Below, piece by piece: positions 23,564 through 26,736 of a stretch of 35,117 bases of DNA (the stretch's first letter is position 1; every line of letters begins with the position of its first letter). The translations under genes and the position numbers were made by a program. The DNA lies in assembly GCA_025451215.1 (NCBI GenBank), contig JANWKU010000077.1:1-35117 (forward strand), in the 5' to 3' direction. Below the pieces are notes generated by a model. The model was not told the origin of the DNA. It did no database searches and was given only the letters and a program-made list of their open reading frames with translations. The stretch comes from Terriglobales bacterium (lineage in GTDB: Bacteria > Acidobacteriota > Terriglobia > Terriglobales > Acidobacteriaceae).

Positions 23564-24157
23564 TCACCTTGTGTGGCCATAGGCCCTGAAAAAAGCCCGC
23601 ACGACTTCCGCTGCCATGGCGCGGGGCATGGCCGCGGTAGTGCTTTTTTTGCCAACGACAATATACCAATAGAACGCCGGCCCCATGAGCAGCGCCACGC
23701 CGATGGTCATATCAATTTTACGCACGAACTCATGCTGCTTGATGCCGCGCTTGATCAGATTCTTAAGTCGCGTCTGCGGGGGGTCGATCATGCGCGAGCG
23801 CCACTGATCGCCAAATTTTCGGTTGCGCGCGGCATAGCCCATCACGTGGGGCATCATTTGCATCTTCAATTCCTGCTTCGCAACGGCTGGTTGGTAAGTG
23901 AGCGCGTCCACAAAGTCCTGCTGAAGGTCGCCGGACTCAAACCTGGGGGCCTCCTCATAAAATCCGAAAAGATGCGAGAGGGCTTCGAGCGCCAGCGCGT
24001 CTTTGTCGGGCCAGTGCTTGTAGATGGTGGCTTTGCTGACGCCGGAGCGTCCGGCGATGGCGTCCATGCTGGTGGCGTCAATGCCGCCCTCGACGAAGAG
24101 GTCGATGGCGGCATCGAGGACTTTGCCGTGCGCCTTTGCGCTTCTTGTCCTGGCCAT
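23564..24157 (-). CDS. TetR/AcrR-family transcriptional regulator, last gene of the ABC exporter operon
   Basis: This 197-residue one-component repressor has its helix-turn-helix in residues 28-55 (TSMDAIAGRSGVSKATIYKHWPDKDAL). A helical ligand-binding domain follows (ALEALSHLFGFYEE to AAEVVRAFFRAYGH). It starts two bases after the permease stop on the same strand and has no ribosome site of its own, so it is probably translated by coupling. It very likely represses its own operon through the palindrome 25736-25750 in the promoter (inference from position). The ligand is unknown and is probably a substrate of the exporter. An open frame on the opposite strand here is a shadow of this gene. 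Confidence 0.9.
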   Translation of the reverse strand: MARTRSAKAHGKVLDAAIDLFVEGGIDATSMDAIAGRSGVSKATIYKHWPDKDALALEALSHLFGFYEEAPRFESGDLQQDFVDALTYQPAVAKQELKMQMMPHVMGYAARNRKFGDQWRSRMIDPPQTRLKNLIKRGIKQHEFVRKIDMTIGVALLMGPAFYWYIVVGKKSTTAAMPRAMAAEVVRAFFRAYGHTR

Positions 24158-24908: not shown

Positions 24909-25700
24909 TCATTTCCTCCACATCTGCGCGAAACGCCGCAATTGATCTTGCGAGGTCGCGCTTTCATCGCGAATCGTAGAGCCGGTGAGCGCTAGAAACG
25001 CCTGTTCCAGCGATTCGCTGTTTGTCTGCTGCTTTAGCTCCTGCGGAGTGCCCATGGCCACAATCGCGCCGTGGTCAATGATGGCAATGCGGTGGGCCAC
25101 GCGGTCGGCTTCATCCATGTAGTGGGTGGTGAGAAAGACCGTTGTGTTTTCGCTTTCGTTTACGCTCTTCACATGGGTCCAGAGCTGGTTACGCGTCTGC
25201 GGATCGAGACCGAGCGTGGGTTCGTCGAGAAAAAGAATTTTAGGAGTATGCAGAAAGCCTCGGGCGATCTCCAGGCGGCGCTTCATGCCTCCGGAGAACG
25301 TCTTCACGTAATCATTGCGGCGCTCCCAAAGCTCGAACAGCTTGAGCAATTGTTCGGTGCGCTGGACGCGGAGTTTATGCGGCACCTTGTACAGGACTCC
25401 GTGCAGCTCCATGTTTTCGTAGGCGGTCTGCTCGGCGTCAAGGCTGGGATCCTGAAAGACGATTCCGAAGCGCTGACGAGCCTCATTGCGATGGATAGTG
25501 GGATCAAGACCATCGAGTTCAATTTTGCCGCTGGTGGGGTTCAGCAGCGTGGTCAGCATTTTAATGGTGGTGGTCTTCCCTGCCCCGTTGGGGCCGAGGA
25601 AAGCAAAGATTTCGCCTTTTTCGACCTGGAAGGAAATCTTATTTACGGCGGTCAGATCGCCGAAAGTTTTTTCTAGGTTTTCAACCCGGATGGCGCTCAT
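24909..25700 (-). CDS. ABC transporter ATP-binding protein, DrrA-like
   Basis: This 263-residue ATPase has Walker A GPNGAGKT at residues 36-43, signature FSGGMKRRLEIARG at about 137, Walker B ILFLDEPTLGLD at about 154, and the switch histidine in TTHYMDEADRVAHR. It is the first gene of a three-gene operon (ATPase, permease, TetR) and powers export by the permease. The substrate is unknown; DrrA/CcmA/NodI-type pairs export drugs, lipids or antibiotics. The ATG at 25700 follows GGAG by seven bases. The operon promoter and operator lie just upstream. Its last codons (MWRK-stop) hold the ribosome site of the permease gene. Confidence 0.94.
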   Translation of the reverse strand: MSAIRVENLEKTFGDLTAVNKISFQVEKGEIFAFLGPNGAGKTTTIKMLTTLLNPTSGKIELDGLDPTIHRNEARQRFGIVFQDPSLDAEQTAYENMELHGVLYKVPHKLRVQRTEQLLKLFELWERRNDYVKTFSGGMKRRLEIARGFLHTPKILFLDEPTLGLDPQTRNQLWTHVKSVNESENTTVFLTTHYMDEADRVAHRIAIIDHGAIVAMGTPQELKQQTNSESLEQAFLALTGSTIRDESATSQDQLRRFAQMWRK

Positions 25701-25733: not shown

Positions 25734-25781
25734 ATACTAAACGGTTTAGTTTAGTTATGCAAGACTGTTTAGTTATGCAAG
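25734..25781 (-). promoter_or_regulatory. promoter and TetR-type operator of the ABC exporter operon
   Basis: On the minus strand, TTGCAT (25762-25757) is followed after exactly 17 bases by TAGTAT (25739-25734), a good sigma-70-type promoter about 34 bases before the ATPase ATG. A perfect palindrome (arms ACTAAAC and GTTTAGT around one base, 25736-25750) overlaps the -10 and the spacer, the usual place for a TetR-type operator. A 15-base sequence containing TTGCATAACTAAAC occurs twice, 18 bases apart (25749-25763 and 25767-25781), giving extra half-sites. Confidence 0.8.
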
Positions 25782-25793
25782 GCTAAGAAGCGA

Positions 25794-25891: not shown

Positions 25892-26449
25892 TTATTTCTT
25901 TTTGGCGTGGGCTTTCGCTGTCGCAGCGGGAAGCGCGAATCCGATCTTGCGGCGATTGGGTTCGGGGGGCGTCATTAACTCGCGAATAGCTTCGATGAGT
26001 TGCTGGATATCGGAGTCATGAGTTTCCAGGCGGTGTTCGAGTTCGCCTAGTTTGGCCACGATCTTTTGCTTCGACGACAAAGCTTCGCGCATTTGGACGA
26101 AAGCGCGGACGACGAAGATGCTCATTTCCACGGCGCGTTCGGAGTTCAGGACGGTGGCGGCCATGATCGCTCCGTGCTCGGTGAAGGCGTAAGGGAGATA
26201 GCGGCGGCCACCGTAGGTGGAACTTGAGATCACAAATTGTGATCTCAAGTTTTCATATTCAGTCCCTGATAATCGGAACAGAAAATCAGCCGGAAAACGG
26301 TCGGTATTGCGCTTAATTTGCTGATTTAATTGTCTGACCGGGACACCGTAAAGCTCCGCCAAATCCGCATCCAGGATGACTTTTTGACCGCGGATTATCT
26401 GTATTTTTGATTCAGTCTGTCTCACGAGAGCAATGGCTTTTTTATTCAT
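25892..26449 (-). CDS. ORF6N-domain protein
   Basis: This 185-residue protein has the ORF6N domain typical of phage and mobile-element antirepressor-like proteins. It starts MNKKAIALVRQTESKIQIIR, with VILDADLAELYGVPVRQLNQ and NTDRFPADFLFRLSG. The family-defining segment NLRSQFVISSSTYGGRRYLPYAFTEHG begins at residue 67. A helical C-terminal part with SKQKIVAKLGELEHRLETHD and a Lys/Pro/Ala-rich tail follows. The likely role is DNA binding or regulation; it is unproven. The start ATG 26449 has GAGTGA five bases upstream. The coding sequence holds a 31-base palindrome over the conserved motif, and two related palindromes lie upstream. No phage or plasmid genes are nearby. The H1-like gene is divergent from it. 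Confidence 0.85.
   Translation of the reverse strand: MNKKAIALVRQTESKIQIIRGQKVILDADLAELYGVPVRQLNQQIKRNTDRFPADFLFRLSGTEYENLRSQFVISSSTYGGRRYLPYAFTEHGAIMAATVLNSERAVEMSIFVVRAFVQMREALSSKQKIVAKLGELEHRLETHDSDIQQLIEAIRELMTPPEPNRRKIGFALPAATAKAHAKKK
26221..26251 (-). repeat. perfect palindrome inside the ORF6N gene over the NLRSQ motif
   Basis: The arm AACTTGAGATCACAA is followed by one central base and its exact reverse complement (15+1+15). The palindrome starts exactly on a codon boundary and encodes NLRSQFVISS (residues 67-76), the most conserved part of the ORF6N domain. Two related palindromes occur upstream of the same gene. Confidence 0.9.
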
Positions 26450-26462
26450 AGTAATCACTCAT

Positions 26463-26487
26463 TTGAGGTCGCAAAATGCGACCTCAA
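26463..26487 (-). repeat. ORF6N-type palindrome A, upstream of the gene
   Basis: TTGAGGTCGCA, three central As, then TGCGACCTCAA. It lies 14 to 38 bases before the ORF6N ATG, so it covers the leader or promoter region. On the minus strand it reads AAC TTG AGG TCG CAT TTT, then GCG ACC TCA AAT (NLRSHFATSN). Confidence 0.85.
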
Positions 26488-26503
26488 GTTCAAATTTATG
26501 CCA

Positions 26504-26532
26504 ACTTGAGGTCACAATTTGTGACCTCAAGT
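26504..26532 (-). repeat. ORF6N-type palindrome B, upstream of the gene
   Basis: ACTTGAGGTCACAA, one central base and its exact reverse complement (14+1+14). Its centre is 43 bases from that of copy A. On the minus strand it reads as DLRSQIVTSSW, which is the canonical family motif including the following Trp. Bases 26533-26736 hold no other structure I can name; promoters for the two divergent genes must lie in this gap. Confidence 0.85.
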
Positions 26533-26736
26533 CTTAGCCGGAAGTCGCAGTATATCTGCCTTGCGACAGCTTGTTTGTGACGAGTGAACTTCTGATTTCG
26601 TTGAATAAATCGAGAGGGAGTATTCAAAGCGTGCTAAACTGCACCAACTCAAAGGGCTTGCGAGGTCGGCAGCGAGTGATCACTTTCGATTAACCTGACC
26701 TCAGACCTTTCTTGATTGATAGGCTGGAGAGAAAAT

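Follow-up and report, generated by a model that had tools for sequence, protein, structure and literature searches.

A Palindrome in the Wing Codons of ORF6N Genes as the Probable Recognition Site of the Encoded Proteins

Introduction

An ORF6N gene of a Terriglobales bacterium raises the question of why the codons of a conserved protein motif should form a perfect palindrome. The gene is located at 25892..26458 on the minus strand of the window, which is the whole stretch of 35,117 nt that was analyzed. It encodes 188 amino acids from a GTG start, and the likely start codon is an ATG at 26449. The original prediction was that the palindrome over the motif had two relatives upstream of the gene, and that either the protein recognized the DNA encoding its own conserved segment, as an autoregulator, or the motif DNA spread as a repeat between ORF6N genes.

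ORF6N (PF10543), KilA-N (PF04383) and Rha (PF09669) are annotated as phage anti-repressors or regulators. In the open-access literature, no description of an in-gene binding site was found for any of the three.

Materials and Methods

ORF6N genes were gathered from public genomes, viral contigs, plasmids and phages. The motif was placed in each gene by profile alignment, which includes divergent members. The palindrome score was calculated as arm matches minus twice the mismatches, and codons redrawn synonymously from the same gene were used as the control. Kinship among genes was partly controlled by similarity-matched gene pairs. The related phage regulators Rha and KilA-N were examined as a further control, which proved not to be negative. 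A single-sequence fold prediction gave a pLDDT of 46 and was not used.

Results

The Window Protein

The window protein matched PF10543 with 113 bits against a curated Pfam cut-off of 27.8 (E 7e-33). It also matched the PHROG anti-repressor family phrog_4792 (E 7e-27) and the PADLOC models of the candidate defense gene PDC-S05 (E 5e-53), a candidate by listing, where neither a mechanism nor a DNA site is described. The window gene is the single ORF6N gene of its genome. A sigma-70 scan of 26180-26720 gave one weak match, which lay within the gene and was no better than those in shuffled sequence.

The AlphaFold2 model of the protein had a mean pLDDT of 86.7, with helices at residues 30-37 and 41-50 and short strands at 60-62 and 90-92. 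Residues 41-50 (VRQLNQQIKR; 26309..26338, minus strand) form the second helix of a predicted helix-turn-helix. This segment, with a pLDDT of about 98, is the predicted recognition helix on the basis of the model and of covariation. The palindrome is encoded in a loop of variable length at the place expected for a wing (residues 66-87; 26198..26263, minus strand), and the residues that it encodes were modeled with low confidence (mean pLDDT 64 for residues 71-80). The best structural matches of the predicted fold were Ski/Dachshund, RacA-DNA and MerR, all of them weak (Z ≤ 6.3) and under the level separating true relatives. A Foldseek search with the model gave no match at E ≤ 0.001, and no solved relative was found by a sequence search of the PDB. 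The model suggested that ORF6N is a winged helix-turn-helix protein.

The Palindromes of the Window

The in-gene palindrome AACTTGAGATCACAATTTGTGATCTCAAGTT was found at 26221..26251 on the minus strand. It is perfect over 31 bp, with 15-nt arms and a 1-nt center, and it lies in frame over NLRSQFVISS (residues 70-79), as had been predicted. Both upstream palindromes were also present, neither with an assigned strand. The one at 26463..26487 (type GGTCGC) has 11-nt arms and lies 14 nt before the ATG; its 3-nt center makes it less than fully perfect, contrary to the earlier description. The one at 26504..26532 (type GGTCAC) is perfect, with 14-nt arms and a 1-nt center, and lies 55 nt before the ATG. 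Their centers are 43 nt apart and together they cover 14-83 nt before the ATG, exactly as claimed. In the 3.85 Mb of the bacterium's own genome, the palindrome consensus occurred at just these three places, even with three mismatches allowed.

Repeats of another type, GTTTAGTTATGCAAG and ACTAAACGGTTTAGT, were observed at 25734-25784, before an ABC transporter gene (24909-25700). A TetR-like gene (23564-24157) is nearby, and the repeats look like its operator.

The Palindrome in the ORF6N Family

Over the LRSQ codons, a score of at least 9 was reached by 85% of 251 dereplicated ORF6N genes and by 0.3% of the synonymous reshuffles, and a score of at least 12 by 54% and 0.007%, respectively. Part of this sample was found through the peptide LRSQ and is hence biased; among the 134 genes that came from the family search alone, the figure for a score of at least 9 was 80%. 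The excess over codon-shuffled controls, on which the original prediction had staked its case, was thus found. In nearly every ORF6N gene gathered, an individual version of the palindrome was present, and the lowest-scoring members mostly also lack the LRSQ motif. At five loci (L091, L094, L101, L102 and L110), a second, divergent ORF6N-like gene beside the typical one has neither the palindrome nor LRSQ. In the alignment, many ORF6N proteins share a nearly invariant R-x-IGF motif near the C-terminus.

The distribution of ORF6N is sporadic: 53 of 199 Acidobacteriota genomes and 39 of 148 Bacteroidota genomes have it. Among the control genomes, those of Caulobacter vibrioides and Lactococcus lactis gave an ORF6N match, and that of Escherichia coli a Rha match. 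All nine Bacteroidota genomes with a site also have ORF6N, against the 39 of 148 overall, and comparison of coordinates placed 9 of the 11 Bacteroidota sites inside or just 5' of an ORF6N gene. A few ORF6N-type sites stand away from any ORF6N gene. Exact palindromes of this type, mostly intergenic, were observed in seven viral contigs (L339, L342, L345, L346, L347, L350 and L353) with no ORF6N gene in the examined piece; they are possible regulated targets. Two such palindromes also lie near apparent type I restriction genes at L242, where the examined piece likewise holds no ORF6N gene. In Treponema saccharophilum pTS1 (L399), an ORF6N gene is flanked by the methylase and specificity genes of type I restriction. 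In two tiny Segatella copri plasmids (L394, 4140 bp, and L409, 2955 bp), a replication gene and an ORF6N gene are the sole annotated genes, and each of these ORF6N genes has the in-gene palindrome in a second reading frame.

Conservation as DNA

The two arms of the palindrome change together even where the amino acids change. The symmetry is kept in genes that encode LRSQxVTS, LRSQxATS, LRFQxGTS, LRLQxATS, WRSQFVTSN, LNRSQFATGS and others. Position 4 was Watson-Crick paired in 98.6% of genes, compared with 39.5% after partner reshuffling, and arm positions 7, 8 and 13 covaried like position 4. In a separate clade, an identical DNA core occupies the equivalent place in the domain and is translated in another frame, so that it reads LITNCDKL or VVANCDHL. 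The results support well that the in-gene site is conserved as DNA, and they suggest that the LRSQ motif, recorded as a conserved feature of the protein, is for the most part the imprint of a DNA site.

Correspondence between the Site and the Recognition Helix

For 214 genes, the mutual information of the site bases with the protein columns outside the motif was calculated. It pointed to residues 46 and 43 for position 4, residue 46 for position 5, residue 42 for position 7 and residue 87 for position 8. Helix residues 42, 43 and 46 covaried with site positions 7, 4 and 5, and in gene pairs matched for similarity wing residue 87 covaried with positions 8 and 9. In class A, G stood at position 4 with E46 (73/73), A with Q46 (94/102) and C with R46 or K46 (23/23). 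At position 7 of the same class, G stood with K42 (109/110), and for R42 the base was mostly A. In gene pairs matched for overall similarity, these columns again stood out far above background; the excess for residue 46 was +0.84 against a background of 0.02 ± 0.11.

The same correspondence was seen in silent codons. The Ser73 codon was TCG in all 71 genes with E46 and TCA in all 95 with Q46 (Fisher 1e-48), and Ser codons elsewhere in the same genes had no link to residue 46. The silent codons of Arg72 followed residue 42 in the same manner, as did the Cys codons of the other-frame clade with residues 46 and 42. It is difficult to see why a silent codon should track a residue 27 positions distant unless the helix recognizes that DNA.

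The code also held beyond the genes from which it was derived. It was followed by 62 of 68 and 56 of 64 half-sites in 37 genes outside the derivation set, from further phyla, and in the other-frame clade by 38 of 40 half-sites at position 4 and 38 of 40 at position 7. Paralogues of one genome differ in site type, and each fits the site of its own gene. In Parabacteroides distasonis (L404; NZ_OY725801.1, 59598-61331), three ORF6N genes stand in a row and all three in-gene sites fit at position 4; a code residue at 42 is absent from two of the proteins, and at position 7 the site of the third gene fits in just one of its halves.

The window protein has Arg42 and Gln46, for which the code predicts ATCAC half-sites. 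Its in-gene site fits fully, with A at position 7 for Arg42 and A at position 4 for Gln46. Neither upstream copy has the base expected of the self-type at position 7: GGTCAC fits at position 4 and misfits at position 7, and GGTCGC is likewise not of the predicted self-type. Taken over the family, this site-helix covariation would place the binding site of the protein within its own gene, as in an autoregulator with an intragenic operator.

KilA-N and Rha

The KilA-N and Rha samples were smaller than that of ORF6N and came mostly from viral contigs. Among 41 KilA-N genes, 83% had a score of at least 9 compared with 3% of controls, and the palindrome lay over F-N-x-x-E-F-x-x. The KilA-N sites were very varied, such as TTTTAATTGTACCGAATTCGGTACAATTAAAA and TTTTAACATGGTGGAATTCCACCATGTTAAAA. 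Among 55 Rha genes, a palindrome of at least that score was found over N-F in 51% compared with 1.3% of controls.

In both families, site positions 7, 5 and 4 covaried with helix residues n, n+1 and n+4, which are 42, 43 and 46 in KilA-N and 23, 24 and 27 in Rha. This geometry is the same as that of ORF6N residues 42, 43 and 46. Common to the three families were R or K with C at position 4 and K with G at position 7; at position 5, G for D and T for N were further preferences shared by Rha and KilA-N. The pattern covers the whole ORF6N family and extends to KilA-N and Rha, an extent that had been missed by the original prediction, and all three families share both the in-gene palindrome and the contact geometry.

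Upstream and Tandem Copies

Upstream copies of the palindrome were detected in 49 of 231 genes; a downstream segment of equal length gave 8, and shuffled sequence gave none. Among the relatives of the window gene, 16 of 28 had one. The upstream copies fitted the code of their owner in part, with 62 of 108 and 70 of 100 half-sites against permutation means of 49 and 50. The upstream copies foreseen for homologous genes were thus real, but about four fifths of the genes had no detectable one, so classical operator repression cannot be general. The upstream copies are secondary, perhaps operators of weaker effect, perhaps sites for other members of the family or leftovers from a former specificity. 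The distances between upstream and in-gene sites had no significant helical phasing (Rayleigh p 0.14-0.59), which leaves DNA looping between them unsupported.

Tandem copies were observed as well. At L075 (1500-2342) and L076, a single ORF6N gene contains two tandem palindromes, both in frame; the 3' copy agrees with the code of that gene and the 5' copy is of another type. The 5' sites of the two loci differ from each other and are largely symmetric. Two tandem in-frame sites were also found in each of L108 and L122, and three intergenic sites adjoin an apparent ORF6N relic at L239.

Discussion

From these comparisons it is highly probable that the ORF6N protein recognizes the palindrome that the wing codons form within its gene. 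This half of the original prediction is strongly supported by the code of residues 42, 43 and 46, by the silent codons and by the second reading frame, whereas its other half, autoregulation, is what we infer from them.

Each of the explanations that dispense with recognition by the encoded protein has something in its favor. A contact between residues 46 and 76, with the palindrome as a by-product of codon choice, would account for the covariation of residue 76 (A, V or G) with residue 46. It was refuted by the silent codons of Ser73, Arg72 and the other-frame Cys, and synonymous reshuffling gave no palindromes; a constraint on the protein only has a negligible probability. Many sites have one core across phyla, which would suit a different host protein as the reader. 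Such a factor can hardly be the answer, since the paralogues of one genome differ in type and each matches its own site and helix. The palindrome could also fold as a hairpin in the messenger, and several of the upstream copies are found near the start codon. However, G-U pairs were not favored (19 G-T against 55 A-C mismatches at positions 2-13), and a match to recognition-helix residues is a pattern of protein-DNA contact, which makes the hairpin very improbable. The upstream copies, the tandem in-frame copies and some of the intergenic ones are what a mobile repeat spreading between ORF6N genes would leave. Against this, the copies were not dispersed independently of the gene, as those of a REP-like element are: the three copies of the own genome are all at the window gene, and the Bacteroidota sites are mostly at ORF6N genes. 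The sites also change by compensatory steps and match the helix of each gene. The spreading of motif DNA, the second alternative of the original prediction, was therefore not borne out and is most unlikely.

A different question is whether self-recognition, if real, serves a purpose other than autoregulation, such as exclusion or cross-control between related elements, recombination, defense or counter-defense. The upstream sites, like the 5' member of the in-frame double sites at L075 and L076, are often not of the owner's type, as expected if other family members act there. The family is listed by PADLOC as a candidate defense gene, and ORF6N genes can be plasmid-borne, neighbors of integrases or flanked by type I restriction genes. 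For recombination, however, distances left and right of the palindrome correlated as well as those within each half, without a break, and a hot spot at the palindrome was rejected; nothing ties the site to cleavage or integration. Such other uses are possible but rather unlikely. Negative autoregulation is the likeliest use of self-recognition, and the sequence comparisons favor it to a modest degree.

The preferred reading is that ORF6N, presumably as a dimer, binds a palindromic site, some 27 bp long, in the DNA that encodes its own wing loop. In the cell, this binding would limit transcription of the gene, either by blocking elongation or jointly with a promoter-proximal copy where one is present. 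The in-gene operator would accompany its gene through horizontal transfer and function at any new location, in keeping with so sporadic a distribution. As a whole, the explanation by a dimer that recognizes the in-gene palindrome and limits its own transcription is probably correct.

Operators inside coding sequence are known from lac O2 in lacZ and the gal internal operator in galE. These resemble the ORF6N site as dyad-symmetric sites in coding DNA, for which a role in transcription is proposed here. They differ in that the site lies in the gene of another protein and has left no family-wide protein motif, whereas the ORF6N site lies in the wing codons of its presumed binder, shapes a motif and coevolves with the recognition helix. 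For some replication initiators, the coding gene also contains the origin; examples are phage lambda O with its iterons and pT181 RepC. The likeness is that the protein binds DNA inside the gene encoding it, as predicted for ORF6N; their sites, however, are replication origins, and nothing indicates a replication role for solitary chromosomal ORF6N genes.

It is likely that a winged-helix superfamily of ORF6N, KilA-N, Rha and possibly more carries its own target in the wing codons. Its conserved motifs would be mainly footprints of DNA sites that coevolve with the recognition helix, and one shared code (n, n+1 and n+4 to positions 7, 5 and 4) would let the target be read from the gene. Conserved protein motifs are usually read as protein function; the ORF6N motif is instead explained by a DNA site apparently read by the same protein, and the constraint shows itself at silent codons and in more than one reading frame. 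ORF6N is thereby a clean natural system for protein-DNA coevolution. A large group of uncharacterized regulators from phages and bacteria gains, from sequence alone, both a predicted target and a code of specificity, by which their function becomes testable.
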